64,000 bases of DNA, taken from Plicaturopsis crispa FD-325 SS-3. Lineage: Eukaryota; Basidiomycota; Agaricomycetes; Amylocorticiales; Amylocorticiaceae. Location: NCBI GenBank assembly GCA_000827205.1, contig KN832566.1, positions 514,543 to 578,542 on the forward strand, in the 5' to 3' direction. Shown piece by piece: positions 10,194-58,698 of this stretch. Every line of letters starts with the position of its first letter. Within the stretch, counting starts at the first letter, position 1. The notes below the pieces were generated by a model, which did not search any database, had not been told where the DNA came from, and saw only the letters and a list, made by a program, of their open reading frames with translations. The position numbers and the translations under genes were made by a program.

Positions 10194-11227
10194 TCACTGC
10201 CGCGTCCGGAGGTCTACGAGATCTACTTCGACCTGGGTCAAGAGAATAATCAGTATCATTGCCTTGCGGTATGATGCCGACCTGGACTCACTGTGGAGAT
10301 GGCCTCTTCGATTGCGTTTGCGCACAATGCGGCAAATCGCTTCGTCTTGGACTGAGCCTTGTCTCCACAGTGTGTGCATTTGGATGCCAAAGCAACGAAG
10401 CGTTCAGATGTAAGGATCTCTGCGACAGTTGCACCGCGGGGCTTGGCCTTCAATGCTGCAGCCGCCTCACCGATCGCTTCCCACAACCACATTGCTACGG
10501 ACCCGTACGATGACCATATGAGCGGGGGGGAGCATTTTTCCCATTCGAAATCCGAACGCCACTTCGTGATCAATGTGGGGCATGCGGTACTGGCGACTTC
10601 GCCACATCGGCGATGATAGTCCTGCAACCGGTGGTACTGGCGTGTGCTGATGTCATCCAACTCGTCGATGTACGGCCAGTCTGAAACCGGCACCGCCAGA
10701 TTGTACTTCGCCGCCGCCCGAGCCTCGTCCTCAAACTTGTAGCGCATGGCAGTTACGAAGATTCGAAGGGGAGTGTCGGAGGAGAGCAGGCGCGTGGATA
10801 CCAGCGCCGTGCGGGCGTGCCTGTGGACGTCCTGCATGTCGTATTTGGTTGCCGCGTCGAGCACCGCCAGGACATCCCGCAACGTCTCGAGGGGCGGGCG
10901 TTCGACTATGGCAGAGGGCAGGCTGTAAAGCAGGAGCTTTTTCACCAACTCGCTGTCTTCGCTCAACGGTATCACGGGCAGCCCATCCTTCAGGGTATCT
11001 CCTGTGCTGCCCTGAGGCGGCGTCGGCAGTGCGAACATGCCCTCGAAGACTGAGGAGGTCACGGAGAGCATTATTTTGAATGCGCGGAAATCGACGTTAT
11101 CGGATGAGCGGAGGATGACATCGGCCTTGGGATTGTCGAAGGGGGCGGGGGCGTCTCTGACCTGCCTATCGTCCGTGCTGCCTTTCCGATCGTCTGTAGC
11201 GACCTTGGTATCGCTGGTAGCGTTCAT
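10194..11227 (-). CDS. BTB/POZ domain protein B
   Basis: Full-length member of the local BTB family and the best reference for BTB-A. Domain order: short polar N-terminus; BTB core beginning DVILRSSDNVDFRAFKIMLS with SSVFEGMFALP; helices with DVLAVLDAATKYDMQDVHRH; a segment ISTRQYHRLQDYHRRCGEVA; KPRGATVAEIL; then a C-terminal CTHCGDKAQ knuckle. The plain open frame runs to 10256. However, a 59-base GT-AG intron (10233-10291) followed by a last exon encoding VEVDLVDLRTRQ is preferred, because paralogs A and D have the same terminal exon. No DNA-binding or kelch repeats are seen. Cellular role unknown; an adaptor role is only a family-level guess. Confidence 0.8.
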
Positions 11228-12029
11228 GGCTGGTGTGATTCAGATGTGAATGAACTTGTTGGTCAGCGCGAGAGGGTGCTTTCGAGGTTTGAGATGCTTA
11301 TCGTCCAGGGTTAACCCACGGGTGGGCACGAGGCTGCGGCATGGATGCCTGGGTTCTCATGCGCAGCTTTCGTTGGAAGAGTCAGGCATCGGGCACTCGT
11401 GCTTCAAGTTGTGGGCGTTACAGTGTAACCCAGATCAGTTACAAGTCAACCTTTGGAGGGTCGTGTGAATTGGGTAGCCTGGTAACCTGTAGGCGTCTAG
11501 GATGTGTACCTATCGACTGGGATTGATAGATAATGTGGACAGGCTTGCAGTCTGCATGCCTATATCTAGAAGAAATCAACGTGTATGAGTGAAAGTCGCG
11601 ACGAAGTTCAAACTTCGAAGTGGGCACGCATCCACCTGGTCCCATTATTGTGTATACCCCATCTTGAACAGCTGCTACAGTGTTTGCTAAACTGAGATTA
11701 CACGCTGCACGTCCTCTTGATGCCGGAAGTGAAGCCTGAATACAGGCCTCGTTAATGGTGCGTCACTGCTGCTTGCTCTTTTGGACCTTTTTGGACCATG
11801 ATTTGATCAGGAAATTGAAGAGCGAGAGGGATTCAAGGGGAGCATACCTAGGCAAATAAACCAGTTCTCCTCCTCCTAGGCATATGTAAGATGGCGCACC
11901 CCCACTCACTTTCAAGTTCGAAAGAGAAAACTTATCTCTTCTACAAAAGAGAGTGGACATACACAAACGGGCATTCTGATTGGCTAGACAAACCGGACCG
12001 GAAATGTAGCCGGTACCGGACATCGTCGT
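11228..12029. other. Gene-poor stretch before satellite array
   Basis: Upstream flank of BTB-B followed by sequence with no recognisable gene. A minus-strand open frame ending SLFNFLIKSWSKKVQKSKQQ (stop near 11763) has a basic tail but continues into the satellite array, has no domain I recognise, and is not called as a gene. Confidence 0.4.
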
Positions 12030-13290
12030 GCAGAGGCGCGACTTAAATGTGGAGACGCGATACGCGTCTCGAAATTTCTCGAGCGTGTTGGCTTGCGTAC
12101 AGGTAACGAGGAAGTCAGATGCGGAAGACGTGGCGCCACAGGTAAGAGAATTTTCTGGAAGGAGCTGCCAGCATTTAAAGGCAACGGGCCTATTGGCAGG
12201 GATACCCACCACTGGCACCGACGCGGACGCGACCCACACACGACGTGACGCACTCTGCGGGACATGCGTCGACTTGCGCTCAGGCGACGAGGACGTCGCA
12301 TGCGGAAGACGTTGCGCCACGGTCTGCGGAAATTTCTCGAAGGCACAGCCGTTATACACATGTCACAGACTCGACGGGCCCTCGAGGAGCACGACGCATC
12401 CTTCGCGCGCGTAGACCCACCGACCAGGAGCCGCAGGGCGCCCGTCACCGTCGATGCGCCGCTCCTGCGCTCGCTCCTGCGCTTCGCAGTCGCAGTGTCC
12501 CGCAGCGCGCAGGACACTAGGATGCCCACCAACGAGCGACTCGGACACAATCCACACGACACGCCGACACGACGCGTTCTATGGACCTGGCACGGGTGGC
12601 ACACGAGAAATCTGGATCGCCGTCTACTAGCGGCAAGCAGCAACGCGGGGGACGCTCTTTAGGAGGACGTGCGCCTCGAGATTTCTCGAAGGCACCGCCA
12701 TTAGCGCACAACGTCATCGAGAACGACGCATCCTTCGCGCACGCAGACGTATCGCCCAGGAGCCGCAGGGCGCACGTCACCGTCGACGCGCCGCTCCTGT
12801 GCTCACTCCTCCGCCACGCGGTCGCCGTGCCCCGCAGTGTGCAGGACGCCGGGATGCCCACCAGTGAAAAGACTCAGCCAAGCGACACGACACGACACGA
12901 CACGACACGACACGACGCGTTCTACGGACCTGGCACGGGCGTTAGGTGCCACGCGAAAAATCTGGATGGCCAACCACTCGCGACTCACGGCAACGCGGGG
13001 GAGGCAACGCGGAGGACGCCCCTCGAGAGGACGTGCCCCTCGAAGTTTCTCGGAGGCGCCGCCAGTTTCTACAGGCGACGATGCCCTAGGATGCCTACCA
13101 ACTCACCGAAAACGACCGACGCGATGCGACGCCGCATTCTACAAACTCGGCACGGGTGTTGAGCGGCACTCGAATGATCTGAATGCCCCGTCCACTAGCC
13201 GCTGGCCCGCTAACGGCAACGCAGGGATGCACTTCGGGAGGCGTGTGTGTCACGATTTTTCGAAAGCCGCCGCCTGGTGGCATTTCAGGA
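12030..13290. repeat. Degenerate GC-rich tandem satellite, about 4 units of ~320-350 bases
   Basis: Four ordered copies share three anchors. Anchor 1, like GGATGCCCACCA, is at about 12200, 12521, 12852 and 13089. Anchor 2, like CGACGCGTTCTA(T/C)GGACC, is at about 12246 (poor), 12577, 12911 and 13127. Anchor 3, like TTTCTCGAAGGCACCGCC, closes the units. Spacings are 321, 331 and 237 bases, so the last unit is shortened. A pentamer run (ACACG)n lies in the third unit. Open frames crossing the array are by-products of its low stop density. Confidence 0.75.
12883..12917. repeat. Microsatellite (ACACG)n
   Basis: About six head-to-tail copies of a five-base unit inside the satellite array; the neighbouring unit has only one or two copies at the same place, so the expansion is local. 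Confidence 0.9.
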
Positions 13291-13435
13291 TGCTACGGAG
13301 CATGAGGGTAGTCGATTGCGCATCGACAGGTACCACACTTCCAGGCTCAGGCAACCTCGGGCAAGACGATATGCATGAGCAATAGTACTTACGGTATGAG
13401 CACCTCGCGATTTCTTATGCTGATGTACACTCTAT

Positions 13436-13515
13436 ACATGGGCCCCTGATCCCGACCGACCAAAGGTCGGGCGGCGAAGGGGCCCGTCCGGTAATGATTC
13501 TGAATGAATGAATGT
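13436..13515 (+). repeat. Imperfect hairpin followed by TGAA repeats (possible LINE/SINE 3' end)
   Basis: GGGCCCCT and CCGACCGACC pair with GGTCGGGCGGCG and AGGGGCCC across an AAA loop. About 20 bases later comes a short TGAATGAATGAATG run. A stable 3' hairpin plus a simple-repeat tail is usual for fungal non-LTR elements. No coding part is attached, so this would be a heavily 5'-truncated copy or a SINE-like piece. Inference only. Confidence 0.35.
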
Positions 13516-13679
13516 TTTTTAGAGTCCGATATTTCACTGTAAACACGACTGACACTTGCTCAACCGCACGTATACTCAAAACCCGTGGCGTAGCACGGGT
13601 CTCTGCTAGTTTAAATAAAAGGGTAAATTATTAAAATTAAAATTTTCAAAATACACAGGGAGGTCACAGTACTAAACTG

Positions 13680-13822
13680 GGGATGACCCGGCAGAAATCG
13701 AGTGCGGGTCAAAATGAAGTTAAAACGAGGTTGAAAGCGGACCCTTGGCGTCTGGGTTAATCCGTCGAAAACTTAACCCAGATGCAACTTCGTTTTAACC
13801 CTGGGTCATTGTGCCAGGCACG
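13680..13822. repeat. Foldback (imperfect inverted repeat)
   Basis: A nine-base palindrome arm CTGGGTTAA (13752-13760) faces TTAACCCAG (13773-13781) across a 12-base loop. Outer arms TTAAAACGAGGTTG (13720-13733) and CAACTTCGTTTTAA (13785-13798) also pair, and GATGACCC at about 13683 faces GGGTCATT at about 13803. Together they form a 140-base foldback. Confidence 0.6.
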
Positions 13823-14974
13823 AGGCAGAAACGGCATGTGGGTACGGCAGGCTCAATTTGATCTGATTATATTTCATTTTTCTCTATTTTACGACACATT
13901 ATTGAAGGACGTGGTTCAAACAGGCTGCATTCAACTGAAAATACATAGAACTAGACACCGTAAGGGCGGCAAGCTAACGGGGGGAGAGGGGGATCCGCAA
14001 CGCCGTCATCTGAGTCTCCGTCCAGCCTGCCTGAGTACTGAGTCGTTGCGTTTCCGATTGTGCGTGCAGCGTGCGAGGTCCTGGTTGAATCTAACGGAGG
14101 AAACGTTAGCTGAAATCTGCGAATACTATGCTTGGACGACGTACCCAAATCCCGTAGTGTCACAAATCACGTACGACCTAGAAAAAAGCTCGTCAATGGG
14201 GGAGAAGACTCGGGGAGAACGCGCCACATCCAGGCGGGAGATCAGCTGCGAACATGCAGCGAGAAACGAAATTCTGTGAGAGGCAACAGGCTGCCTCTCA
14301 ACAGATACAAGCGGCTCGCAAAACAACGCGGCAGTGGTCCACAACGGACATTCCAAACACGAGATTCGAGGGCAAGAGGGAGGGCAAGAGGGAAAAGGAG
14401 CGAAGCGTTTTTTTTCAGAGTCGAAATACCGCTCACCGTTGATATAGACGTGCCAGCCATCAAAGTCTGATCGATGGCGATGGCGCCATACGGCGTCGTT
14501 TGCAGCAGGTCTGCGATATCTGCGCGAGGGGTAGGCCGGCGAAGCGCGCTGGGGTTAAGTTTCGATGAAAACGCGTCCCGGTCAAGTCACGCATTCGAGT
14601 CTGGTTTAATTTCAGATTTTTGCCCCAGAGTCAAATCCGTTTCACGTCGGGGTCAACGCCCGTTTCAACCAAAATCCGCCAGTTTGATTATCAACCCTGG
14701 TACAAACTAACTACTGGCTGTGTAATCGAGCTCTTCTGACATTAAATGGGTCACGTGACGAGCCGCCGGCGTGCGCGCGTGCAGGCGCGTGCGCACTGGC
14801 ATATAAATTATAATATCACATAGAGTATATGTACAGTAATATAGACTGGCACGCGCTTCACGGTTGCATGACAACAGTACTTGCTGCAGGACTGCTGACA
14901 GTGAGTGTCACAATGTCCAGGCTCGTAGACTAAGATATTCATTAGAAAAACGGTACATGTATGCGACTCGGCGG
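13823..14974. other. Gene-free stretch downstream of dynamin-like gene
   Basis: No gene recognised. Motifs like GGGTTAA/GGGTCAA recur around 14550-14700, echoing the foldback at 13.7 kb. An AT-rich patch lies at about 14800-14840. This is presumably the 3' flank of the dynamin-like gene on the minus strand. Confidence 0.4.
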
Positions 14975-17900
14975 CTAGTGGCGGAAACTCATCAATGGCA
15001 GCGCCGGAGTGGTTGGTTTTACGGTTCGCTTTCGAGTGCCATTTCGTATGCTCGAAAGAAATGAGCCCTGCGTACTCTGTCCGAGTCGAGACACACCATC
15101 GCTCGTTCCTCCATTCTGAGCGTCCTGTGCATGCCCGGTTCGCGACTGCTGTCCGCTGGCAAATATGTCCAATCTACGCTGGATATCGTCAAGCCGAACT
15201 TTCTGTGCCTCGAGGCGTGCACGCCTCTCCGCCGTCTCCTCGTCTTCCGCAAGTAGCTCCTTCATACGCGCCTGCGAGTCACCCTCCTCGGTCTCCTCTA
15301 GGATGTGCCGTCGCAGAACATCCTCGAGGCTCGATGCCAAGCCCTCGTTGAGTGCGCGCTCGATGGTGAGTGGGATATAGTCGATGATACGCTGTGTCAT
15401 AAATTGATACATCGATCAGTCGCGGCACTGCGAGAGGATAGCAAACGCAGAAACTGACCTTATGCGCGACGTCGAAGTACGCACACACGTCCGCCATCAC
15501 GACAAGTTCCTCATGGTCGCTCGCATAGTCCTTATAATCCGGCGTCAGCAGCTTCTCGAGGTCCTCGATTGTGAGATTGATGGAACCGGCCATGCGGAGT
15601 TGTTGGATCGCCCGCGCCTGGTAGGAGTGGATGTACGATGACTCCGCTATGTCTGACCAATAGGCCAGGTATGCTTCACGCTTCTCCGAGAACGCGTCGT
15701 TTTGCGTGAAGAGTGGCGCCTGCTCCAGGGAGAGCACGCGGCCGATCTCGCGCGCTGCGATCTCCTCGAAAATTGCCTGGTGCTCAGCACTCAGTGAGCT
15801 AGCGCGATTCATGCAGTCAGCAGATACGGGTGAGCAGATACAAGGCGTTGAGGACGCACCGCATGTACGCTTGCAGCGAATTGAATTGCCCGAAATGGGT
15901 CATAGCGAGCTCGTCCAGGAATATGGAGAGGTTCTTAATTGCGTCCTCGAGGCATATGCGCGCGGGCGCCGTCCACAGGTCCGTCGATTCCCGGATGAGA
16001 GCCTTTTTCGCGTCGAAGGGGACGTTGTGCGGGAGCTCCCACGCGATGTGACTGGCGCACTGTGAGCGGCATTCGGTATAGGTTCATTGAGATAGGCATC
16101 ACCTGTTGATAGTATCGCGCACATCGTTCAGGGTTAACGTGCGTGGTCTCATGCTCGGATATCGGGACACTGGAGGTGTTGAGCCCAGAACATCCTCGAG
16201 CTCCGCCAACCCGCCGAATGATACATTGAATGATCCACCTGTCCGCGTAGTGAGATCAAAGTCGAACGACGGAGAAGTCAAATCGATGCAAAGTCGGAAC
16301 AAATCGTAGTCCCTGCGATTGCATATGGCGAGGGTCTTGTGCTCATTTCCCCCGCGGACAGCGCCACGTAGGGCAGCACAGTACGCGGATATGCGATTAT
16401 GGATCTCGACCGCCGGTCCGTTGCTGGGGGGCTTGGGCAGACCACTCAATTCCTGCGCGCAAGCCGCTATGCGCCTTTTCACATCTTCTTTCAGCTCGGG
16501 GATGCTATACGAGCAAGGATGTTAACATGCCGACAAGTCCAGGGTAAAGGGGTGCGCACGCGGATTCGACGATATCGATAAGCAGCCTGCTGATGCGCGA
16601 CACGAATCCCGGGATGCCCAGCCGGCTGCGGTCGGCGATGTCGCGCCACGGCGATGTAGAGTTGAAAAACTCGGAAGCAAGTGCTTCCAGCGCCTGGGGC
16701 GAAAGACCCGCGGCGCGTTGCTGATCATCGGGGAGGCGTACACAATAATATCCGTGCTTCAGTGGATGCGCGGTGCCGTTGAGCACCTTTGCCCACTCCG
16801 CCTGGGCACTCACTGCGCCAGGCCCGATCGCATCCGGTTTCGTCAATACGCCTGCATGGACAAGCGAAGGGAGGGAGACGCTCAGGAAATGCGTGCGAGT
16901 GGGAGAGGAGGAATGCATGAGACATACCAATCGTGCGTTCACCGTGGGGATCTGCTTCTTTAGCGAGACGGACGGCGAGTTGGTTTTGAATGTCATCTGA
17001 AGGCCGACAGTTTGTAATAGTTCGGGATACCTATGCTTCTGCGAAGATACGCACCGCTCACAGGTAGCACAACAAGAATAAGTGTCCTCCTCTTCGCAAT
17101 GCTAGACACGACGAGGTCCCTTATGAGGGCGACATCTCTATCCCCTGCATTCTGGATCAGGCCTGGACATAGACCCCTCGTCAGTGCGCGTTGAAGTGGA
17201 ACGTGTAGCGAGAAAAGAATTTAGAACCAGGGAGGTCCACAAAGGACAGATCAGCTGCCTCAGGATCCTTCAAGTCGACACAGATGGTGTTCTTGGAGAA
17301 CGACAGCCGTCCACTGGAAATACCGTCGTCCTTATAGCTATCTTTGAGCTCCGCCAGCGGCATCTTCCTGAATTTCGGCTGCACTTTGTTTTTGGCGTCT
17401 AAATTCAAAATCGCTGCCTGTGCACGCCGAATGCATAGGTCGACATCGCTCTTGTCAGTCAGCAATTGGAACTGGACAATCCGAGTGCTGTCCAACTCGT
17501 GGCCATTCCTGTCGTAGGCAATGCGAAGGGATATATTGCACGACCATGAATCCGCGGAACTTGACATCGTGCATTCCATTGGGCATCTGCACAAAGGAGC
17601 TTAACATGGCATCGGTCCTTTACCGCATAACGCACCTAGTGCAGGTTGATCCATCACGAGGCAGTGCGATCTAGTAGTAGGAGCTCCTGTCAAAAAGCAA
17701 GGACTATAAGTAAAAAATAGATGACCGACCCGGCTGATGGCCTCCACTAATGAGCTTTTACCAGCTATCGAAAGCGTCAGTAACTGCCTGCGATGTTTGA
17801 ATGCGCAAAAGTCCTGTCGTTACCTGATTGACTACCAATGACGGCAATCCGGGGGAGGTCAAATTCTCTCTCAGCTCTAGAGAAAAGCGCTCAATGATAA

Positions 17901-18041
17901 CGAGGAGAACCGGCGCGTAGGCGAATCATACCCCATGCTATGAAGATCCTTAGACAATTCCAGGAGCTCTTTGCATTTCCGTGCATATTCGGTGGATGAA
18001 AGATCAGATGAGTCGCTTGAAGTTTTGGGTGGAGGGGCCAT
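14975..18041 (-). CDS. Dynamin-like large GTPase
   Basis: Predicted membrane-remodelling GTPase of the dynamin superfamily, closer in form to the Mx/fungal dynamin-like group (no PH or proline-rich domain seen). Start: ATG of MAPPPKTSSDSSDLSSTEYA. Motifs in order on joined exons: P-loop IGSQSAGKSSLVEAISR split by an intron near 17.8 kb; switch/G3 in SFVDLPG; the block PGLIQNAGDRDVALIRDLV; DDIQNQLAVRLAKEADPHGE; G4 in GVLTKPDAIGPG. Middle/stalk exons follow (FGGLAELEDVLG; LTLNDVRDTIN), then a C-terminal GTPase effector region (DVAHKV and LTIERALNEGLASSLEDVL) ending in a Glu/Arg-rich coil. About a dozen short introns. The order G1-G3-G4-stalk-GED is complete, so the gene looks intact. Membrane target unknown; VPS1 and DNM1 are usually closer to 700-800 residues with other sequence, so I do not assign those names. 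Confidence 0.82.
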
Positions 18042-18965
18042 CTCCTCAAGAGCAACTGAGGGGAAGGTACAGAATGAGACTATTGCGATATGGTAAAAGC
18101 GATCTTTAACGCACCTGAAGCGCGTGGGAATGGGGGCGAGAGAGGCTACGGATTCAAGCTGCGGATAAGGTAGAAGTGCAAGATGGTATGCAACGCGGCA
18201 CAAGTACGTGGTAGAACGCAGATACTTCGAACCCACGTCGCACAAGGCGGCGATAAGTGAGTGCATGACATCCGAAATGGGCGCTAGAATGTACCTTTGA
18301 ATAGCAAGTTCGCACCGAAGGAAACTAGCGCTTGAGTGCGCAGTCCGAGTCGTGGCCGAGTACCCTAGAAACAGCAGGACTTACGCCCGAGTTGACAGCA
18401 CAAGGTCGGCTGCGGACCAGCGCGGGCCTCTTTGGTGGCTCTGAAACCATGGGGTGTTCCACACCCCGAATAGATTACAGGAAAGGGTCCCCTGCATTCG
18501 CTCTTGATCGATTTAGGCTTAGTTACGCTAGGGGTAAGGTAGAGCCCATACAGTATACCAATCATTGAGGTCTTTCTCTTCCAGTCTTGGGACGGAGGAG
18601 GAAGCATAGGGCTGGGGACGATACGGGTTCAAATCAGTGCACTGTACACATTTCGATAAATTGGCTGTACTCACGGAAAAGTGATGGAAAAAATATATAC
18701 AATCGTTAGGGCTATTGTCATTGTTAGACGCGCCGAGCGTGCTACCCAGAGTCGTAAACCCGACTCCTATGCACATTAGCGATTACTTGTCCGAGGCATA
18801 AAGATAGAGAAACACACTAAACAGTGGACACGAGTGCCGACAGAACCTCGGCCAAAATAGACACCATGAGGCTACAATGAGGCACCTCCACGGAAATGCG
18901 GGGGACTGAGTGCCAGAACGCCTCTGCATTCAACGCCATTCGCATCTCGGAAAGTATCGCCAGGC
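18042..18965. other. Intergenic between dynamin-like gene and BTB-C (divergent)
   Basis: No gene seen; divergent promoters for the dynamin-like GTPase (minus) and BTB-C (plus). The small open frames at 18365-18607 and 18528-18776 have no recognisable features. Confidence 0.4.
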
Positions 18966-20012
18966 ATGCAATCCGATGAAGACTACGCGCACGCCGACTC
19001 GGCGGTCCCCGACGCCGACGCACCCTTCAACGACCCCAAAGCCGACGTCATCCTCCGCTCATCAGATAACATCGATTTCCGCGCATTCAAATTCCTGCTC
19101 TCCATGGCCTCGTCCTTCTTCGAGGGCATGTTCACGCTCCCGCAGTCGCAAGGCCCCGCAAAATCGGGCGAGGGAGCGGGAGAGGTGGTGAAAGACGGCC
19201 TGCCCGTCATCCCGATGAGTGAAGACAGTCTGACGGTGAAGAACCTGCTGCTCTTTTGCCTGCCCACGGCGACCGTTGACCGCCCAAAGCTCGAAACCGT
19301 CAAAGAGATTCTCGCTGTCCTCGATGCTGCGCTTAAATACGAGATGGCGCACGTTCAGCGCCATGCACGTGCCGCGCTGGTGTGCCCAGATATCTTCGCC
19401 TCTGAGGCTCCGCTGCGTATTTTCGCGATTGCAGTGCAATACAATCTAGAGGAGGAGGCGCGGGTTGCTGCGCGGCATATACTGGCGGTGCCGATCGCGG
19501 AGTGGCCATTTGTCGAGGAGATGCGATATCTCACGGCCTGCCAGTACCATCGGCTGCTCGAGTACAATCGTCAATGCGTCAACGCCGCGGTTACTCGGGG
19601 CATGAACGTCCAGGATGACATCACTTACAGGCCAGAGACGTGCCCCGCCAAGGCCGGCATGTGCTATTATCACACGCGAAGCCTGTCGTATAGCATGTCA
19701 TATCGCAACAGGGTCGATGACGCGCCATGGTGGGAGGACCTGATGAGCGAGGTGACGGCGGCGTTGAAGCTGAGACCGTGCGGGGCGGCGCTGGGCCAGT
19801 CCTTCATCGTCGAATCGGCTACACTGGCGCGGGCGTGGAAATGCACGCACTGTGGTCCAAAAATGCACACGCACATGAAGAACATCATTGCTTATATTTC
19901 GAGAGAGGTCGAAAAGGTTGTCTCTGAGGTTTGTCCCGTAATCCAGCGCTACGGGATATTTGCCATAACTCACTTTTTCTGCCACCAGATCAAACTCAAG
20001 ATCGAGTCTTGA
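18966..20012 (+). CDS. BTB/POZ domain protein C
   Basis: Third BTB family member. The core DVILRSSDNIDFRAFKFLLS is followed by SSFFEGMFTLPQSQ, KDGLPVIPMSEDSLTVKNLL, ILAVLDAALKYEMAHVQRH, RYLTACQYHRLLEYNRQC, LRPCGAALGQSF and the C-terminal knuckle WKCTHCGPKMH. A GT-AG intron at 19929-19988 joins VEKVVSE to a final exon encoding IKLKIES. This 60-base intron is a multiple of three and has no stop, so unspliced RNA also reads through to the same end. It forms a tandem pair with BTB-D and shares the terminal-exon layout with D, B and E. Specific role unknown. Confidence 0.8.
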   Translation: MQSDEDYAHADSAVPDADAPFNDPKADVILRSSDNIDFRAFKFLLSMASSFFEGMFTLPQSQGPAKSGEGAGEVVKDGLPVIPMSEDSLTVKNLLLFCLPTATVDRPKLETVKEILAVLDAALKYEMAHVQRHARAALVCPDIFASEAPLRIFAIAVQYNLEEEARVAARHILAVPIAEWPFVEEMRYLTACQYHRLLEYNRQCVNAAVTRGMNVQDDITYRPETCPAKAGMCYYHTRSLSYSMSYRNRVDDAPWWEDLMSEVTAALKLRPCGAALGQSFIVESATLARAWKCTHCGPKMHTHMKNIIAYISREVEKVVSEVCPVIQRYGIFAITHFFCHQIKLKIES

Positions 20013-20450
20013 ATTAGCTGACGAGGAAGTCTTCCAATTTTCGACATTGTCGACACGAAACTCGCGGGTCATGATGCCCTGTATACTATTCAGTGGTGGA
20101 AGAGGGAGATAGAGGTAAACCTTGATACCTTCTGGCTGCGCCGCAGTAGCCGGTTGCAGTGTACGATATGTTCTTAGAGCTGCTATGGCCCATGACCCTG
20201 TTCACATCCTACATTTCCAGGACAGCACAGTCAGGTGGGGTCATTGTGTCTCGATATCTATAGCGTACCTCTTGAGATGGCAATACTTGTAATCGATGCG
20301 GGCGATTGAACGTGAAAAGTGATGTCTTCTCGTTCCATTGAATGCATCCCATGAGATCTCAGCAGCCGGCGACCAGCCGAAAAGACCGCCGCAGCTGAAT
20401 AATAAATACTATAAGTCGTCTCCCTGGAGTAAGTCGAACTCGCACCGACC
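20013..20450. other. Spacer between BTB-C and BTB-D
   Basis: Short intergenic stretch with the presumed promoter of BTB-D; an AT-rich AATAAATACTATAAG lies about 50 bases before the start codon. Nothing else recognised. Confidence 0.4.
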
Positions 20451-21468
20451 ATGGACACCACCGACCACAGCCAGAGCGCCAAAACCTCACAGACTGAGAT
20501 CACAGACGCCCCTGCCCCCTTCGATCATCCCAAGGCCGACGTCATCCTCCGCTCATCCGATAATGTCGATTTCCGCGCATTCAAATTCTTGCTTTCCTTA
20601 ACCTCGACTTTCTTCGAGTGCATGTTCACCCTCCCACAGCCGCTCCAGGCCGGCGCAGGCGAGGTGACGAAGGGCGGGGTTCCAGTGATCCCTATGAGCG
20701 AAGATAGCGAGGGCGTCACGAAACCCCTGCTTTATTGCCTGCCCTCAGGGACGGTGCAGCAGCCAGGCCTCGAAACGCTGTCCGACATCTCTGCTGTGCT
20801 GGATTTAGCGGTCAAATACGATATGCCGGAGGTCAAGACGCACGCACGCATAGCGCTCATATCCCATCACATCCTATCCTCAGAGGTGCCCTTGAGCATC
20901 TTCGCCATCGCCATCCGCTACGGGCTGCAGAAGGAAGCGACTGTTGCAGCGCGGTCCACCTTAGCCGTGCCGATCGCAGATTGGCCTTATGTCAACGAAT
21001 TGAAATATGTCACAGCTAACCAGTATCACCGCCTACAAGAATACCATCGCAAGTGTGGTAGTGAACTCGCTCAACTATGCATATCGTCGTCGGTCAGCTG
21101 GGAGTTACAGATAGCGGAGAAATGTCCAAGCTGCCGGTCCTCATGGGTGCGAGTTGTTATTGGTGAGGCGGGGGCGGCATTTAGGGTGAAACCGGCCATT
21201 GCGACTGCCAGAGAAGTTTTCATCTCCGACAAAGCACTCTCTGGTCCATGGAAATGCGGAAAGTGTTATGGGGGTGCAGGCGATGTGCACTCACGCTTGG
21301 AACACTTTTTGAAAAAGCTGTCTCCCTCCGTTGAAGGGATAATTTCCGCGGTAAGCCCTCGGGAATCAACATTTGCCAAACGACGAAGTTACTCACCAGT
21401 AGACGTGCTCAAAATGACAATTGGGTGAAACATAGGTAGAGGTTGACCTTGTAGATTTGGCAGCCTGA
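20451..21468 (+). CDS. BTB/POZ domain protein D
   Basis: Fourth BTB family member, tandem to C. The core DVILRSSDNVDFRAFKFLLS is followed by STFFECMFTLPQPL, KGGVPVIPMSEDSEGVTKPL, ISAVLDLAVKYDMPEVKTH, KYVTANQYHRLQEYHRKCG and FRVKPAIATAREVF. The C-terminal cysteine pair is present but changed (WKCGKCYGG instead of CTHCG). A further Cys pair, KCPSCR, lies earlier at about residue 225. Exon 1 ends at 21350; an 85-base intron (21351-21435) leads to a last exon encoding VEVDLVDLAA, matching BTB-B. Without splicing the frame would stop at 21428. Function unknown beyond the BTB fold. Confidence 0.78.
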
Positions 21469-28937: not shown

Positions 28938-28945
28938 GTGACCGC
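28938..28945. repeat. Target-site duplication, left copy
   Basis: GTGACCGC, identical to the copy at 30066-30073 on the other side of the hAT-like element. Confidence 0.75.
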
Positions 28946-30065
28946 CAAGAGGCGAACGAAAGTGAAAGTTCAGACCCTAGGCCTCCGGGACCCCGAATGA
29001 AGTACTTTGTTCATGATTTTCCGCACTGTTTCGAAGATTTATAAACAGTTTAGGCTGTTACTCCCTCATTTCTTGCTCTTTCTCTGTAAATTGATTTTTG
29101 CTGGCATGGGTAGGTTCATGTGAAGAGGTCCCCAAAATAAGGAAGCCCCGAGTGCCGTAGTAGATAAGATAAATAGGATTACATGATGAGCTACAGACAG
29201 CGGTCATCATGGATGTTCGTTCTCCACGATTTCAATTGCAAACGCCATTCTGCGCATCTGTAACTCTGTTCGGTATATGGATAGAGAGATTTGGATGTTC
29301 AGACACCCCTCGAATTACCAGGAGAATGAGGTGCCAGGGCTTGAGATCTGGCCTTTCCTGCAGCCTTGTCTAGTATGTCAACTACAATCCAGATATGTGA
29401 TATTTTGTACAATGGACCACTCTGAAGGTAAACGAGGTACTCAAGGAGTGATTCCTATGAGTACTCCAACTTAAATATGCTCAAACTGATCTAATATAAC
29501 GAGAACACATGCCAAACTTGCAGAAATGACTGTTTAGCAGCAGTATATTCAGTATTCATTTGAGCTGATCCTTAGAAAATAAGCCCCCGTGTCTCAGAGC
29601 AGTACAGGCATGCTATTACTGTCGAAGCCCCAGGAGAGCAGCAGCAAAAACGAGCTAGACTATGTATTCTTAGCAGTACGAGCAAGCAAGGTTTCGCGCC
29701 ACCGCAGAAAATAACGCGACGCGTCTTTGACGCGTGAACGAAAAAGATTCTCACGGTTACTCTCGAGACTCTCTCGAGCTCTCTCGAGCGTTTTTCTCGA
29801 TAAACAGTTTGAGGATTATCTATACTATACTGTGTCTTTTTGGTCTCAAATTTTATCTGGACCTATGTAGTTTAGACCACTGCAAGCACGAGTGAATTTA
29901 CTTTGAGTAGGTAATATGGTCAAAATGTCGCCGTGCAAAACTCGACGCAAGGGCCAACGAAACTCGCCGATACAGGACCCCGGATACCCAATACCATGAA
30001 GCAGTGCTTCAAGCTTACAAATCAGGAGGCCTAGGGTCGGAACTTTCACTTTCGTTCGCCTCTTG
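28946..30065. mobile_element. hAT-like non-autonomous DNA transposon (1,120 bases)
   Basis: The ends are inverted repeats of about 41 bases with one mismatch. The left end begins CAAGAGGCGAACGAAAGTG (28946); the right end closes with its complement, ...TTCGTTCGCCTCTTG, at 30065. An exact 8-base direct repeat GTGACCGC flanks it at 28938-28945 and 30066-30073. An 8-base target duplication with ends starting CA points to the hAT superfamily. The interior has no transposase-like frame, so it needs a partner in trans. Near-identical ends and a perfect target duplication suggest a young insertion. It lies about 95 bases upstream of the Pcp1-like start codon, within its likely promoter. Confidence 0.75.
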
Positions 30066-30073
30066 GTGACCGC
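30066..30073. repeat. Target-site duplication, right copy
   Basis: GTGACCGC, identical and in the same orientation as 28938-28945. Confidence 0.75.
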
Positions 30074-30163
30074 GTTTTGATGCCGTTCGTTCCTTGGTCT
30101 TGTCCATCCTGTCAGAGTTTTGGCTCTCGAAAACAGTCCTTCATGTTCCTTGCTATTATGGCT

Positions 30164-30413
30164 TACTGTACTATTCCGACCAAGTCTTCGGGTCACGGGT
30201 CACAGCGCCTTTCGAAGTGAAGAGATTTTCGGAATGTCACGGTCACATTGGCATACGAACTTACGAAGAGTACAAATTTTACTAATGTCACAAATTTGCT
30301 CTAAAATAGGCTCGAAATAGCAATTTTTCTCGAGATTTTGGACTTGTCACAGCAAAATTTCGCTCCCGAAGATAGTCTGTACCAACTAAACGGTGGCGCA
30401 GTGAGGGGGTACA
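30164..30413. repeat. Left terminal region of the helicase/DUF6589 element
   Basis: Contains the outer inverted repeat (30164-30191 including TA), several GTCAC words (near 30192, 30199, 30236, 30242, 30286, 30345) and the inner inverted block ending TACATGTTC near 30418. AT-rich in between. Likely the transposase-binding and promoter region for the helicase. Confidence 0.7.
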
Positions 30414-30545
30414 TGTTCTATATTTTGTCTGATTTTAGTCATCGGCGACGGTCGGACCGGTGCATGTGATCAAAGGACTTAGAGATTTTTTTTCAATCTG
30501 GCGCGTCGCGTCTAAGTCTGTCGAAGCGCTCACTCCCCTGCGCTC

Positions 30546-33300
30546 ATGAGTCGCGATGCTGCGCCTGCGGTAGGAAACTTATCTTGGCTTCGACCCGAAC
30601 GCCAGGATCTCATACGCAGCATCTTTCGGGAACGCATCCCGCAGTGGACTCATGGGCCCCGCGACTTCCAGATTGAAGCCTGGGGGCATATACTCAACGG
30701 TACCCCTCTTCTCGCGGTTGTCGCGACCGGGGGAGGGAAAACAGCCCTTTACTATGGTCCAATAATAATATATCATTATCTATTTCACCACCCGAGTCTG
30801 CTGGATGTTGCCGCGCAACGGATTCTCCCCCGCAAGCCCGTCGCGATAGTTGTAAGCCCGCTGATTGAGCTGGGCAATAGCCAGGTGAGTGCAATGAATA
30901 ATATCTCGTGAAATTTGACTCACAGACTTTGATGTAGGCAATCGAAATACAGGACCTAGGCATTAGTGCCGTTGCCCTGAATAGCGCGACTATAACGGCT
31001 GCACGCCGTATGGGCCGTGACCTGCACAAAGAGATACGACAATGTCAATACTCGGTCGTGCTCGTGTCTCCAGAACGACTCACATCGCAAGAGTTCGACC
31101 CCATCCTCCGAGACGAGGATTTCATGAAGAACTGGATGGTCATGGGAATTGACGAGGTGCACGTTTTGGTGCCGTGGGGCCGCGATTTTCGCAAAGCGTA
31201 CTACCGGACATACTCTGTCTGGAAGCGCGCGCCATCCCATACACGTCTCGTTACAGGAACTGCTACGCTTACTCCGGGAAACGACACATCGGCCGTTATC
31301 GCAAATCTCCATCTACGCGAAGGTCAATACACGATTTTGCGACTACCGACAGAGCGACCGAATGTACGCACCATGATCCACGAACTCGGCCACAGCCTCG
31401 ACGGGTTTAATTTCCCAGAGATTTTGTGGGCCATCGAAGATGGCCAGAAAGCCGTTCTGTACGCCGTGTCCATCGACCTGGGATTTCGGCTTGCCATTTA
31501 CCTTTGGCACAACATGGCACCGGGTGCAAAACGGCTAGTCCGTGTTCGCATTTGGAACTCGCTCATGTCGTCGGAGCACAATGCGGAGACGCTGCGGCTT
31601 TTTCGCGACGATCCGGAGTGCTGCGTTATCATTGCAACGATTGCGTTCGGGATGGGCATGAACGTCCGTAATATCAAGACCGTAGGCAATGTCGGTCTTC
31701 CCACATCCTATAGCGCGAAAAAACAGCAGGACGGACGTGCAGGACGAGACCTTGAAAGCGAGGCGTACGCTCGAACGTACGTCGAGTCATCGGTCATGAA
31801 GAATGTTCGAGCGAAACTCGCGCAAAGTGCCGAGGCCTCCGAAGACAGTGGTGGATCACATCGCGAAGCTGCTGGTGCACGCGGCAGCACTGGAAATACC
31901 GGCAAGAAAGCGTCAGCGAAAGCGAAGGGAAAAGGGAGGAAAGCAAAGGCTGGTACCCGACAGGAGGATACGGTTCACGTCCCAGGCGTCGACGAACATA
32001 TGCTGCGCGTATTGGAGGCCCATGTCGAGGGGAGGTGCTTGGTCGCTGTCGAGAACAGGATCGCCGGTGATAGCGGACCAGATTCGCATCTTTCCTGTCA
32101 GGATGCGGAGCGCCCGTACCCGTGTAGCAGCTGTCAACCATTCTCGGACAACCCTTCGCCCGCGCTCCCTCCACCTACTTTTCAGCACACGTCGTCTCTC
32201 ATTCCTCCTCCTCCCGTTTACGGACCCAAGCCAGCACCACCACTCGTGAAGGAAATGCGCGAGTACGCAGCCAAAAAGCTCGAACTCTTCGCCTTCCGCC
32301 GTTGGTCCCTGAAAGATGGTGCACTTTACAGGCAGCTTCCAAGCACGGCGCTGTGGAACGCAGATACCTTCGACGTTTTGCTGCAAAATTTTCATCTCGT
32401 GCGTGGTCTACATTCATTATCGGAACATCTCGCGCATTGGACATATTTGCGGGACGATGGCGAGGCTCTCGCTTCCTTGGCCGCGGAAATCAATGCACGA
32501 GCTGACTCGCGGCGCGAGAAATCGAAGAGAATTAGCGCTAACAAGGCTGCTGTGACCCGCGCCAAAACAAAGGCCAAGAAAGAGGGTGCGTTCCGTTTGT
32601 CATATATCAATGGCACGAAGTTAACTCATCGTATAATCTAGCGGAGAACGCTGCTCAGCTCGAACGCGAGAAGGAGAATAATCCGCCACCGCCGTCCCGA
32701 TCAACACCGTCAAATGTACACACCCTTCAAGTCTTGCCAACTGCGCAAGGCGTACCACCCCCTTACCCGCAAAATGGATACACGCTCGCCGCCCGAGCAC
32801 CACCTTCATTTCAGTCAAATAATTTTGTTCATTCTGCGATAGCAGACTTTGTTCCATATCCTTATACTCATCCTTATTCGACAGGTTCCTCGTTTAATTC
32901 GCAGAACCTGCCGCCGCCCCCATTTTACCCTTCGTCTAATACACTCACTGCACATAATCCAGCATCGGCACCTTCGTATAATCCGGTGGCATTCCCACAT
33001 GCATATAGTCCACTCCAAACCGCTGCACACTCAAGCTCGGCAAGTCCGCACATGCCCGAGTATAATCGACTTACGGCCCCGAATACACATTACCGTCAAC
33101 CGATATTATATTACCAACCATCGGCTGCACCTCTACATCATAATCCAAACAATCCTGTCCATAATTTGGCATCCTTACCCCATGCACATAACGACACCAA
33201 CTCTTCGCACCTCAATAATCATGTGCCGGCACTAATGACCGGCTCGCGCAAACGTGCAAGCTCTACGACTGTAGAACGAAACAGTAAACGCCGTCGCTGA
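30546..33300 (+). CDS. RecQ-type DNA helicase of the TIR element
   Basis: Superfamily 2 helicase; relatives unwind DNA 3' to 5' with ATP. Three exons (30546-30884, 30938-32585, 32642-33300) give 881 residues. Motifs: Q-motif-like FQIEAWGHIL (41-50), motif I VVATGGGKTALYY (58-70), Ia-like VSPLIELG, motif II IDEVH (DEVH at 185-188 instead of RecQ DEAH), motif III TGTAT (219-223), motif V FGMGMNVRN and motif VI QQDGRAGRD (376-384). The RecQ zinc domain and winged helix are not evident; a Cys-rich patch PCSSCQPF lies near residue 480. The last ~200 residues are rich in Pro, Asn, His, Ser and Tyr, ending with the basic KRASSTTVERNSKRRR, a likely nuclear signal. It lies within the inverted repeats and is convergent with the DUF6589 gene 91 bases away. 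Best reading: element-encoded helicase, not the host's own RecQ. Confidence 0.82.
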
Positions 33301-33391
33301 AATACAAGCATCGGTAAGGCTTATCGTTCTACTCAAGCAACCGCCGGAATTTGCTCACGATTTGCGACTCGATTAGCCCAGTAGCGGCCAT

Positions 33392-36300
33392 TCAAGTAGA
33401 CTCCGACGTGCAAAGCTCGCCGTCCACCATCATCATCTGTGGTGGCGGAGCTGCGCGCGTGCTTCGCTCTGGTAGCTCATCACGCCCAGCACCCTCCCAG
33501 TCGTCTTTCGGGTCTCCTGCATTCAAGTCTGCTAGATTCTGGCCATGCTCCCCAAGAATGTCAAGATGTGACGTCGTACGAGTAATGAAGTTTTTTATCT
33601 TGTCTTTTTTTAGCGTGTCGAGTCCCAATTTGAAGTCGTCGATAGCCTCAAAGCCTTCATTTCTTCCGGGGCGCCGCTGGTTGACCTCTTCGGCACGAAG
33701 TCGTTCCATGAGGACCCGAAGCTCGTTTCGAAGGTGAGGTTCACAGTGTTTTTTGCTTCGCGCTTTCAGCGACACAATCTCCTCCATCTCGTCTTTGAGG
33801 CGGAGGAAATGGTGCACGTTCATCGCGAGGATGTAGCGGTAGAAAGGTTCGTCAAATTCTTTCCCCTTGTGCTGTGCCATGTCTTCGAGCCAGAAATTGA
33901 AGTGCTCTTGCATTAGGTCCATTTCGATGAAGCGTCCAGCTTCTCCATACTGGTTGATAAGCCAGTTCATGAAGACCAGGTGCCGAAGTGCTGGGGAGAA
34001 TTCCCACTTGAAGTTGCAGTACAGCTCCAGAAGATACTGCGAGTAGTACGGATTTCCGCTACCGGCGAAGGTAAATGTCCAGAACTTATATGAATATCTT
34101 GATTAACATGCACATCTCAAATGATAGAAATCCGCTTACTTTCAGAACCTCCCACACACGCCCTGTATCTCCCGTTGCGATGGCCTCGCATACCTCCCGC
34201 CATAGAATACCATTCCGCATAAAAAGTGTAGCATTCGCAAGGGTGATGTCTGCCTTTCCTTTGTTAGCTTCAGCCGGCTCTGATAAATCTGATAGCGCAT
34301 CGTCTTCATCTATTTCCATCAAATCATCCTCTGAGACTGTCGCTGCCGCAGTCTCTGCCCGAGGGTTCTGACTGACAGAAGGCTTCTTTGGCTGCCACGG
34401 AGAGCCCCGGGGGACCGTATCGATATGTGTAGTTGCCGCTGTATCGTTTGAGCGTGCACGCTCGTATGCGGCGGTCGTTGCGTGACGTCTCGCCAGGATC
34501 TCGGCACTCCTGCACAAGCTGTCGAGCGGAGGTAGGTTTTTCTCTTTATCGAGTTTATCAAAATGCTGAACGAGGTCTTTGGTTTGGAAGAGATTCCTAA
34601 GGTAGATCTGTGTCAGTGTTGCGACAGAGTCGGAGGGTACGAGCATTCAAGTTGACTCGGACTTACTCCCAGCAGTTAAGCAGATGCGCATCCAGACATA
34701 AGTCGACAGTGTGTGCGCCACTGTTGAAGTCTACCTTGCGTAGATCACTTGGGACGGGGCATTCTGCTAGTTCAGCAAGGTGAGCCAATGTTGACGGGTC
34801 ATCCTTGCACCCCTCGCCCCAGTGCTGACGCATAACACGGCTTAGATCCGTCCATTTTGTGTGCCAGAGCTCCAGCATCGGAACGACACATCGAAGTGAA
34901 GAGAGATCGCTCTTCTCGGATACAAGGTATTTCATGACCTTGATCAGTTGATCAAAGGTCTTACCGTCGCCCGAAAAGATGCAGATGCGATTGGCTAGCT
35001 TCTCTTCATCGGAAATGCCCATTTGTGCGTCCAAAAAATCCACTACCGCTTCCTTCATCCCTTGAACAGTCATCTCGTCTGCGCTATTCGATCCGAGGGG
35101 TATGATGTTGCTGCGGTGATTCAAAGGTATCTGGATCTTCCTGAGTCGTGTCTGTAACAGCTTCTGAACCTCCTGTCGATAGCGCGAAAGCGCTGGCACA
35201 AATTCTACTAGTGCACGCAGGAAGTGCATCATCCCCACGGCGTCGAGATGGTCCCAGTCGATGTCATTGAGGATCATATCCGCTGTAAGTTGTTTCCGCT
35301 CCATCAGGGCCCGACGTCGCTTGAGCTCCTGCAGGTCAAAAGCTTCGGGCTCATAGTCATGCAGCTCGACGGCGGTGCCTGCGAATCCCTTCAGCATACG
35401 ACTCTCCCGACCAATACGATGATCGCGCTGTTTAGCGTAGGCCTGGATGTTGTCACCGACAATGCTAAAGTGCCGCCCTGAAGAAGCCTGCGCAGCTGCG
35501 CGCAGGGTCTCGCGTGTCGCCTCTGCCATACTCCGAAGACCTTTACGGACCGTCTCGTAAGATACGCTCTGCGCCAAACGGCTTTCGACCCGATATATTG
35601 ATTGATGAGCTTTTACAGCGAAATACCAGAACCCCCGGCACATAGGGTATAGAGAGGCATGCTCTGAGCACCCAAATGTAAGAGAGCCGATGGCTTGAAT
35701 GCAGACCTTCCAGATGTATCGGTAAGCCGACTATCTGACTAAAATACATCCATGTACTCACTAGATTATGGGGGCGGTACTTTCTGACAGCCGTAACACG
35801 ACCGGGGCTGGAGTACTGTCGGTTTGTGTATGCGTTGAGGAGATGCCACATAGTCGGTGCGGATCTTTCAGCGGTTGTTTGGATTGTGCGCAGGCTGAAC
35901 GAGTCGACCTTTTCCCATGTTGCGATGTCTTTCTGGTGCACGCTGCCCTCTTTGGCTGTTGCTCGAAGGCGTAGCCCTGCGTCAGGGCCGATCATCACCT
36001 TGGCCTCCTCGCGGATAATGTCGGTGACCAGGTTCACTGCCCAAGTTGTCATGGCTAATTGTGCATGCTTGATTTCAGCGGGCGAGAGCTTGGGCTCAAA
36101 AACCCTCCCGGAGGCTGTTTTGTCACCCGAGGCGTACTTGGTATCAACCGCATTGTCGAATATGAGGCATAGGATGGTGCCAAATGTCGGGGAGGAGACA
36201 CCATTTAGCAGTGAAGTCACCATGCTCTCGTGTTGGCTCGTCCTCGAGACCGGTTTCCCCCTGTTGTCCTCCAGTCGAAACAGACGGTATAGAAACTCTG

Positions 36301-36457
36301 CTAGGGACCATCCCTGTTCTCTGATAGTATCCAGTATTGCTGAAATCTTATCCTGTTCTTTTCGGTGAGGCCTTTGAGCTGACCGCGAAGCGGGTGTGCG
36401 CGGTGCTCGACCAGTCGATAGTGGGGTCCGCGGAGGAGCGGCAGTCTGTTGCGACAT
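33392..36457 (-). CDS. DUF6589-domain protein of the TIR element (candidate transposase)
   Basis: Belongs to a protein family I know only as a domain of unknown function, many-copied in mushrooms. The first ATG is that of MSQQTAAPPRTPLSTGRAPR, a basic Thr/Pro/Arg-rich start. Family blocks in order: ILDTIREQGWSLAEFLYRLF; YPMCRGFWYFAVKAHQSIYR; HFSIVGDNIQAYAKQRDHRI; a helix block DMILNDIDWDHLDAVGMMHF; IPLNHRSNIIPLGSNSADEM; RICIFSGDGKTFDQLIKVMK; LELWHTKWTDLSRVMRQHW; and, after two more introns, an acidic spacer EDDLMEIDEDDALSDLSEP. Then come VWTFTFAGSGNPYYSQYLLE, MDLMQEHFNFWLEDMAQHKG and NVHHFLRLKDEMEEI. Acidic residues in SIVGDN, FSGDGKTF and LMQEHFNFW could form an RNase H-like DDE triad, but that is inference. 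No zinc finger seen. Frame is open across all exons. Confidence 0.8.
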
Positions 36458-36640
36458 GTTTAGAGTCAATCAGAGTACTTTGTTGAATGTGAGGATGTAT
36501 TTCAAGGTCGTAGATATGCACGAAAGTCGTATTTCGAACGATATCGTGCAGTTGCGAGACTATCGATAAGATCTAGATACTAAGATAAGACCCGGAGAGC
36601 CATGCCACAGAGCGCAAAGCGGTGGCGGAAGGATCCGAAA

Positions 36641-36818
36641 CCCGAACATGTACCCCCCCACCGCGCCACCGTTTAGTTGGGGCAGACCTTATACAGAGTA
36701 TCGACTATCATACTCAATGTATTAGGTCAGCATAGGAGACTATCCCGAAGAGATGTCTATCTCTTCGGCCGTGGTCACAGGTCACAATGGCCGAAGACTT
36801 GGTCGGAATAGTACAGTA
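36641..36818. repeat. Right terminal region of the helicase/DUF6589 element
   Basis: Mirror of the left end: inner block with GAACATGTACCCCCC and CCACCGTTTAGTTGG (about 36643-36687), GGTCACAGGTCACAA near 36774-36788, then the outer inverted repeat 36791-36816 and the abutting TA at 36817-36818. Confidence 0.72.
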
Positions 36819-38143
36819 GTATCTGCTTACGATATGAAGCGCGAGTTGTACGCCCGCAGAACATCGCTATTTAGAGCACTTGTGTCGTTGCATTGCAACC
36901 TCCGAAATGGATGACCAGACAACTTACTAGGCCAAGCAAGAGCAGGGAACGTCATTGAAGTGGTCTTTGTGCATGGGCACATATGCCCTCAGGGGGGTAC
37001 GGAGCGAGAAATTCAGACACCCATGCCCTGCTAAGCGAGAGAAGCGGACCCCAGACCACCGCGAAAACGTGTCAGGGATAAGATAAGATCAGTCGCAAGT
37101 CAGTCGTATTCGAATCGTTCCTTTGGCATTACATTGCGTTAGCAAACACTGAAAACAATTCCTGATTGTTATTGCAAGGCTCCCAGTTGCTACCTGTCTA
37201 CGGTCACCGGGAGAATTGCTGCGAGGGTGTAGAGCCGCTGAATAATCGGTCCAAAAACTAGGAATCCGAGGCACGAAGTCTGCAGAAAGTATTCGCAATC
37301 GAAGGCGTCAGGAAAACGAGTATAAAAGGCGCGACAATCTCGGTGTACCGGAACAGCAGCTCGCGTTTCAATACGTCGCGGGGCGGCAGGGAATCGGCCG
37401 CTCACTGGCACGGTCCCGACGCGACCTCCAGAAAATTGATGTTTTGCGGCGACCAAAAGCTTGGAACTGAACTTGCTGTGGTACGCAGCAATGCTCTAAT
37501 TTAGTGTCTATTCGCTCTATAGAAGGCAAATATCCAAGTACGAGTACACGAGTTGTTCAGGCCGTGAATTTTCAGCACGCGCAATGTCAATTCTATCCCA
37601 GTCTGTTCCGTGGCAAGTACAAATTTTTCCAGGCGTCTTCCGTATGGTTCTGATACTCGCAAGCTACTAAATCCCTGGATTCAGCTATCGACCGCTGCCC
37701 GTAGACGGTCTGCGTTCTGCGCACATTGAACTTCGATGAGGGAGACTGCGAGACGCTGCCGCCACAGACTTGCCGCGATGCCGAGTTACGTCTGAGAAGC
37801 CCAGGACCCCGAGAGTATGGTGTACCATACCTAGGTGCATGGTGCCGCGATTTCTCGCTCCGTACCCCCCTGTATGCCCTCGAGCTCGTCGAAGTTCTTT
37901 GTGGCTTTCCCTCAAGGCGTGCTTATTTTGCCTACGTACAGGCGGTCCCCAATCCGCGCGAGCCATTGGAAAGCGACCGACGCGCCGACTTGAGAGCGGC
38001 TTAGGAACCGCCGTGCGCCCATTAGCGACTATGGTAAAGGACAACGCAAGATTCAGATTATAATTATACTAGCGAGCTATGTTCATAATACAACGGGAAG
38101 AAACAGTAATCATGCAAGGCTCCAAGAGAGCCGAAGGATCCAT
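36819..38143. other. Gene-free stretch right of the TIR element
   Basis: About 1.3 kb with no supported gene. The frames at 37190-37456 and 37685-38044 (minus) have no recognised domains or consistent splice sites. Confidence 0.4.
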
Positions 38144-39741: not shown

Positions 39742-40793
39742 TCAGAACAGTACTTCTAGTTTGATCTGTACTAAATGTGTCAAAAAGTAACGTCGAAAAG
39801 TTGGTGCCACGCACGTACCTCAGATATTACGCGCTCTACCTCCTCTTTGAACAAGGCAATAAACGCCGGCATGTCCTCCCAAACTGTCAGCCGACAGACC
39901 TTGCACATAGTGGCGGCCTTCATAGCCGTCCTCGTCGTCGCAGCTTGGTCGACCTCCGCAGCGCACGGCTTCTCTTTCAGTGCAGCGCCTATGCCTTGCA
40001 TGTACGTGTCCCACCATTTCGTAGCCATCACGACCTCGTCCTGGCTGACGCACAGCCACGAAGCTATCATCGAGCAACCATCCCCGTGGGATGTCGGGCC
40101 ATCTGCGAACCACACGAATTTTCTAGGGATGCGGTTTCGGACTCCGGACGGGACATATTTGGTTGTGATCCATCTGCAGTCGTTGACGAGAGCGCTTGCT
40201 GCGTCGCCGCATTTTCGATGGTACCGCAACAGCCTGTAATAAGCTGCCGCCGGGATGTGCTCCAACTCGGGTACGAAAGGCCGTTGAAGCACGGGCAAGC
40301 TCAATGTATGTCTCGCGGCGATCCTAACCTCCCGCTCGAGCTTGTAACGATGGGCGACGGCCCATACTCGGAGGGGCTCCTTCTCGACAAGTTTCGGCGC
40401 GACGATAGATCTCTGGGCTTTCTCAAGAGCCCCCTCCATGCCATACTTGTCCGCCGCGTCCATCACGGATATCACATCGTCGATAGAATCTAATGCTGGC
40501 GCATCGCCAGCCGAGATCGGGTATGCATACCTCAACAACCTAGTGAGCGTGCCACTATCTTCCGCCAGCAAAACGACCGGTACGGTGTACTCGGTGACCG
40601 AGTCGCGGCTGAAGTTGTAGTTTGAGGGCTGAGGCAGGGTGAACATTGCCGCGAACACGTCTGACGAGTAGGATAGGAACGACTGGATGACATGGAAGTC
40701 GACATGGTCGGATGAACGGAGGATGATATCGGCTTTTGAGTCGTTGAATGGCGATGGCGCTTTCATGGTGGCCTCAATAGCAGTGGACTCCAT
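39742..40793 (-). CDS. BTB/POZ domain protein E
   Basis: Fifth and most diverged BTB paralog, about 18 kb from the others. The core DIILRSSDHVDFHVIQSFLS is followed by SDVFAAMFTLPQPSN, VISVMDAADKYGMEGALEKA, HIPAAAYYRLLRYHRKCGDA and LKEKPCAAEVDQAA. The C-terminal Cys pair is TMCKVCRL, replacing CTHCG. Exon 1 ends at 39819. A 53-base intron (39766-39818) leads to a last exon encoding IKLEVLF, homologous to IKLKIES of BTB-C; without splicing the frame would run to 39780. The shared terminal exon supports common descent and real expression of the family. Function unknown beyond the BTB fold. Confidence 0.78.
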
Positions 40794-54479: not shown

Positions 54480-55009
54480 TTAGAGGCTCATTGTCGGGAA
54501 TCTGGTTCCGGTACCCCCCTGGCTAACCCAAATCCCACAGTGGCAGTGGTTGGCGAGCTTCTGCTCAGCATCCTTCGCCCTCTGTTCAGCATCCTGCGCC
54601 CTCTGCTCAGCCTCCTTTGCCCTCTGCTCGGCCTTCTTCGCTTTCTGCTCCGCCTCCGAGTCGTTAACCTTCTCGGCAGCGCCGACATCGACGTGCAGTC
54701 GGCGCACAGCAGGCAACATAAACTCATGCAACTTCTCCGGCACATACGCGAGGTCCGGCGTCACTATGCACTAGAAAGTCAGCTTAGCGTCCGGGGAGCG
54801 CTGGATCTAACGGGGAGCGCAGGGACAAAAGGAAAGGAAAGAACCGCACTGATGCTGAACGGGGCACGGCACGTAGCTATAGGGCACGACGAACGGAAGA
54901 CGTCTGCGTCTTGGCGGATGTACTGGGCGAGGCATTGTTCGCAGTGGATGTGGCCACAAGGAATGGAGACGGGCGATTTTAGGGACTCGAGGCAGATGGA
55001 GCAGGTCAT
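54480..55009 (-). CDS. RING-finger/coiled-coil protein 1 (short, altered knuckle)
   Basis: Copy 1 of a four-gene RING cluster; RING proteins are usually E3 ubiquitin ligases, substrate unknown. Exon 1: MTCSICLESLKSPVSIPCGH, IHCEQCLAQYIRQDADVFRS, SCPIATCRAPFSI. An intron follows at the same place as in copy 3, then TPDLAYVPEKLHEFMLPAVR and RLHVDVGAAEKVNDSEAEQK, and a short heptad coil (KAEQRAKEAEQRAQDAEQRA), ending at TMSL. The last zinc knuckle reads CPIATC, with two extra residues compared with CPTC in copy 3. This stretches the ligand spacing and may weaken zinc binding. The coil is much shorter than in copy 2. A LINE fragment lies directly upstream. Confidence 0.72.
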
Positions 55010-55069
55010 CGTGGGTCTGAGGACGAGCATGCACTTGCCAAAGACGCAACGAAGATATGGTGCGTGGAT

Positions 55070-58696: not shown

Positions 58697-58698
58697 TA

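Follow-up and report, generated by a model that had tools for sequence, protein, structure and literature searches.

The stretch from 30164 to 36818 in the 64-kb window (the whole piece of DNA that was analyzed) raises the question whether a gene encoding a RecQ-family helicase and a gene encoding a DUF6589 protein, which lie together between inverted repeats, form a single mobile unit and to which known transposons this unit is related. Its best interpretation is that of an autonomous, intact-looking DNA transposon with terminal inverted repeats (TIR). We assign a probability of about 0.65 to its being a "transposase plus RecQ helicase" transposon that most closely resembles AcademH (Academ superfamily). 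The gene content suggests that the host genome is basidiomycete.

As assessed by a repeat search, the outer repeats of this element (30164-30191 and 36791-36818) are 28 nt long and 100% complementary, including a palindromic TA at 30164-30165 on the left and 36817-36818 on the right, which is either a possible 2-bp target duplication or the first two bases of the TIR. Inside this TA, the 26-nt left TIR (30166-30191, + strand) is 100% complementary to the 26-nt right TIR (36791-36816, - strand). The element ends, whose sequence is CTGTACTATTCCGACC, read CTGTAC..GTACAG, with junctions GGCTTA/CTGTAC on the left and GTACAG/TAGTAT on the right. There is a second, inner inverted pair of 44 nt, containing the block CAACTAAACGGTGGCGC, whose left arm (30375-30418, + strand) is 91% complementary to its right arm (36644-36687, - strand). 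The earlier note had described perfect 26-base outer repeats inside a shared TA and a second inverted block, and both are borne out. In a blastn comparison of the element with the 64-kb window, the outer and inner pairs have E values of 1.1e-7 and 6.1e-11, respectively. Perfect inverted 20-mers are confined to a few places in the 64 kb, i.e. this element, two neighboring TIR elements, repeated segments with BTB and RING genes among them, and a single local hairpin (58792/58861), which argues that the inverted arms are not due to chance. The inner pair was also considered as the true end of the element and was rejected, since no direct repeat was seen flanking it by eye.

Two genes are found inside the element, at 354 and 333 bp from the TIRs. 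As described earlier, they are convergent, with 91 bases between their ends (33300 and 33392). Introns in both genes are of the GT..AG type and were chosen by hand, and both reading frames are open to the stop codon after splicing. Other ORFs of at least 80 aa inside the element overlap the two genes in other frames, except for a 116-codon ORF spanning the left element end (29846-30196). The anatomy, consisting of matched ends, two open genes, and a location between two other TIR elements, supports the proposal that the two genes form one mobile unit, which we consider very probable.

The gene on the + strand (30546-33300, with two introns at 30885-30937 and 32586-32641) encodes a RecQ-family helicase of 881 aa. 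This protein matches the Pfam models DEAD (E 1.2e-14) and Helicase_C (E 2.5e-9), and the NCBIfam models recQ (E 8.6e-35) and recQ_fam (TIGR00614, E 1.3e-32). Because both NCBIfam scores are below the curated cut-offs, it is best viewed as a distant member of the RecQ family. We take TIGR00614 to be the same model as CDD:129701, the recQ_fam entry of a study of fungal Academ elements cited below. The best PDB sequence match, obtained with the 31010-32585 exon only, is ATP-dependent DNA helicase Q5 (E 2.3e-14). The protein displays TGGGKT at position 61, DEVH at 185, and QQDGRAGRD at 376, presumably helicase motifs I, II, and VI. The Pfam search, which extended to E 1, reported no RecQ C-terminal domain in the helicase and no match to Helitron_like_N or PIF1. 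A Helitron, which combines a HUH/Y1 transposase with a helicase, was rejected as a candidate on the basis of these two missing matches and the presence of TIRs.

The gene on the - strand (33392-36457, with introns at 35761-35707, 34666-34597, and 34139-34085) encodes a DUF6589 protein of 961 aa that is probably the transposase. After splicing, residues 368-844 of this protein match positions 2-410 of the 410 in PF20231 (E 6.3e-127). The protein is likely to be the transposase of the element because the unit encodes no protein besides this and the helicase, and because residues picked by eye in this one sequence, D317 (GDN), D479 (SGDG), H514 (ELWH), and E785, follow one another in a manner compatible with a DDD/E transposase. 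The residue argument is weakened by three points. D317 falls outside the Pfam domain, the histidine motif is ExxH rather than the C/DxxH in print, and the superfamilies listed with C/DxxH are hAT, P, MuDR, Kolobok, and Dada, a list from which Academ is missing (PMC9587614).

AlphaFold2 modeling of exon 2 of the DUF6589 gene alone, from a single sequence, gave a mean pLDDT of 37.6 and a pTM of 0.21, which provides no support for a DDD/E fold. A PDB sequence search with the DUF6589 exon gave four matches, the best with an E value of 0.7 and none meaningful. No transposase-family model in Pfam, which includes models for KDZ and Plavaka, matched the 961-aa protein; besides DUF6589, there were four matches below cut-offs at E up to 1 (5_nucleotid_C, BrkDBD, DUF883, and ETC_C1_NDUFA5). 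The DUF6589 label was not found in the literature searched, either by name or by Pfam accession. DUF6589-labeled animal proteins are common in bivalves and corals. Bivalves are rich in Academ elements, which are amplified there (PMC10294476). We treat this as a lead only. The residues picked by eye suggest that the DUF6589 protein may be an Academ-type transposase.

The flanks of the element were compared by script for exact direct repeats of 3-12 bp, allowing symmetric shifts of the boundaries by as much as 40 bp inward or outward. In this single copy, the TIR boundary and the 40 bp beyond it showed no such repeat, and TA is all that the two flanks have in common. The five repeats listed by the script all fall inside the element. 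One of these, an 8/9-base direct repeat located 39 bp inward from the ends, corresponds to the GTCAC motif; the other four, exact and 3-5 bp long, occur at different inward shifts, and all were rejected as target duplications. This single copy fits a TA duplication and a 28-nt TIR without duplication alike, and cannot tell the two apart. A longer duplication can also have been lost from it through recombination.

GTCAC motifs are clustered inside the left repeat, where six copies, all on the + strand, lie within 30192-30350. This motif was picked after inspecting the sequence. Among 2128 stretches of 180 bp obtained by sliding along the window, one reaches six copies, the number counted in the first 180 bp inside the repeat. 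At the right end there are two copies, which is unremarkable (95 of 2128 stretches reach two). A pattern search for the 13-base GTCAC[AG]GGTCACA returned two occurrences in the window, one near each element end, with GTCACAGGTCACA at 36774-36786 (+ strand) being the direct, not inverted, counterpart of 30192-30204. The presence of GTCAC on the same strand at both ends is an odd layout for a symmetric transposase site.

Two smaller elements flank the locus. On the left, 97 bp from the end of the RecQ/DUF6589 element, there is a 1122-bp element (28945-30066) with 42-nt inverted ends (98%, CCAAGAGGCG...) and a 6-bp direct repeat, TGACCG. On the right, an 883-bp element (36990-37872) has 23-nt perfect inverted ends (CAGGGGGGTACGG...) and an 8-bp duplication, TATGCCCT, and is presumably hAT-like, judging from its duplication length and ends. 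Neither contains an ORF of at least 180 aa. The clear 6-bp and 8-bp duplications that these neighbors keep indicate that the region preserves the marks of target duplication. Elsewhere in the window, BTB/POZ-domain genes are found at 10256-21428 and 39780-40793 (PF00651 is matched by 4 of the 10 ORFs that were scanned), and some of these genes have repeated DNA between them on opposite strands. Inverted and repeated segments surround a RING-finger ORF (59441-60241) within 54554-63677, suggesting local duplication. A U6 spliceosomal RNA match (61297-61413, 87.5 bits) may hold a small insertion, since it has 117 bases against the 105 of the model. No tRNA was found.

No second copy was detected in the 64-kb window using the joined flanks, the whole element, or both proteins as queries. 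In viral contigs, neither of the two stretches matching the pattern of a DUF6589 exon and none of the three matching the helicase pattern was confirmed, and a query made of the 20 nt that follow the TA in the TIR gave no hit. Two probe alignments against viral contigs yielded 75 and 85 stretches, and two scans of genome contigs yielded 18 stretches each, with zero confirmed in all cases. A tblastn search with the 326-aa DUF6589 exon ORF against phages and plasmids found none. Because the collections searched are by description viral, prokaryotic, phage, or plasmid, the missing relatives say little about fungi.

The earlier note gave no named superfamily for the pair of RecQ helicase and DUF6589 protein, and proposed that the transposon might be undescribed. 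The structure that it described is sound. On the other hand, the claim regarding the pair is not supported if the pair is taken as a transposase plus a RecQ helicase, as helicases of this kind are in print for Academ, AcademH, and KolobokH. AcademH and KolobokH largely account for the supposed novelty of the combination. A RecQ helicase is listed for Academ (PMC3627910), and 81% of fungal Academ copies (1,568/1,938) have recognizable domains such as PF00270 (DEAD) and recQ_fam (CDD:129701) (PMC6416283). AcademH encodes a helicase and has 9-10 bp target duplications, whereas AcademX has a nuclease instead and 3-4 bp duplications (PMC10045372). AcademH elements are described as low-copy in Basidiomycota, Ascomycota, and Mucoromycota (PMC10799480), and putative non-autonomous Academ elements are widespread in the mushroom Marasmius oreades (PMC8290104).

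The present element shares with AcademH the combination of a transposase and a helicase of the RecQ/DEAD type reported for Academ, and AcademH has been reported in Basidiomycota, the probable host group here. It differs in having TA only in place of a 9-10 bp duplication; such a repeat was found neither at the TIR ends of this copy nor beyond them. The resemblance to AcademX is that of an Academ lineage with an accessory enzyme. PHISTA and ESTA, which are fungal lineages with accessory genes and TA duplications (PMC12730594), and PlavakaA, with 2-bp duplications, are similar in these duplications if the TA here is one. They belong to other transposase groups, the descriptions consulted mention no helicase gene, and PlavakaA ends in TGT..ACA rather than CTGTAC..GTACAG.

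The reading as an AcademH-like transposon draws on the perfect TIR, the inner pair, the open genes, the full-length DUF6589 match, the recQ_fam match, and the location amid other TIR elements whose 6-bp and 8-bp duplications are clear. Against it are the lack of a 3-12 bp repeat and of a second copy in the window or in the non-fungal collections, the lack of fold support and of a Pfam transposase family, and the fact that the candidate residues were chosen visually in a single sequence. Because the 9-10 bp duplication is absent and the kinship of the transposase to Academ is putative, we place the element as an AcademH-like variant and not as a member of AcademH. The TA at both ends, with no longer duplication, is what a separate, unnamed lineage would offer, namely a TA-specific TIR transposon with a non-Academ DUF6589 transposase that took up RecQ independently, as in KolobokH. 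That DUF6589 was not found in the literature searched, that PHISTA and ESTA make TA duplications, and that RecQ helicases occur in more than one superfamily (PMC9587614 and PMC3627910) all fit such a lineage. Yet a shared dinucleotide at a given position beside the TIR is expected by chance 1 time in 16, and the TA also extends the TIR palindromically. A single copy is thus insufficient to establish a TA duplication, and AcademH already joins the same kinds of genes in Basidiomycota. We consider this separate lineage unlikely, and slightly less likely still its specific form, a TA-specific TIR superfamily apart from Academ that would have DUF6589 as transposase, its own RecQ, and a same-strand GTCAC array at its ends.

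KolobokH, in which a Kolobok DDD/E transposase is combined with a RecQ helicase, is also a fungal DNA transposon, and its helicase is reported from fungi only (PMC9587614). Kolobok inserts with TTAA duplications, whereas TTAA is present at neither end of this element. Its gene arrangement is also described differently, the helicase here being convergent and on the other strand, a feature that rhodophyte Kolobok is said to share (PMC9587614). We regard membership in KolobokH as highly improbable. It is also improbable, if less so, that two host or domesticated genes lie by chance between inverted repeats, with no mobile unit involved. The single copy in the window and the lack of any in the viral, prokaryotic, phage, and plasmid collections would agree with host genes, but perfect 28-nt and 91% complementary 44-nt inverted pairs frame exactly these two genes, with 354 and 333 bp between the gene ends and the TIRs. 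Subtelomeric RecQ helicases, genes tied to telomeres, have been described (PMC4522978), and fungal Academ genes are frequently annotated as host genes (PMC6416283).

Under the preferred reading as an AcademH-like transposon, the DUF6589 protein would be a DDD/E transposase with an RNase H fold, which would bind the terminal and subterminal repeats, pair the ends, and cut them. The element's own RecQ helicase may act in excision, integration, or repair by unwinding or remodeling the ends or gapped intermediates, and the helicase and DUF6589 genes would move together.

DUF6589, a family of unknown function, would gain a role if it provides the transposase of helicase-carrying transposons. In that case, RecQ and DUF6589 genes of mushrooms that are now annotated as belonging to the host would need to be re-read as transposon genes. 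The absence of a 9-10 bp duplication is relevant to a suggested relation between the length of the duplication and the presence of a helicase or a nuclease (PMC10045372). This open two-gene copy is a test case for the role of a helicase in transposition.
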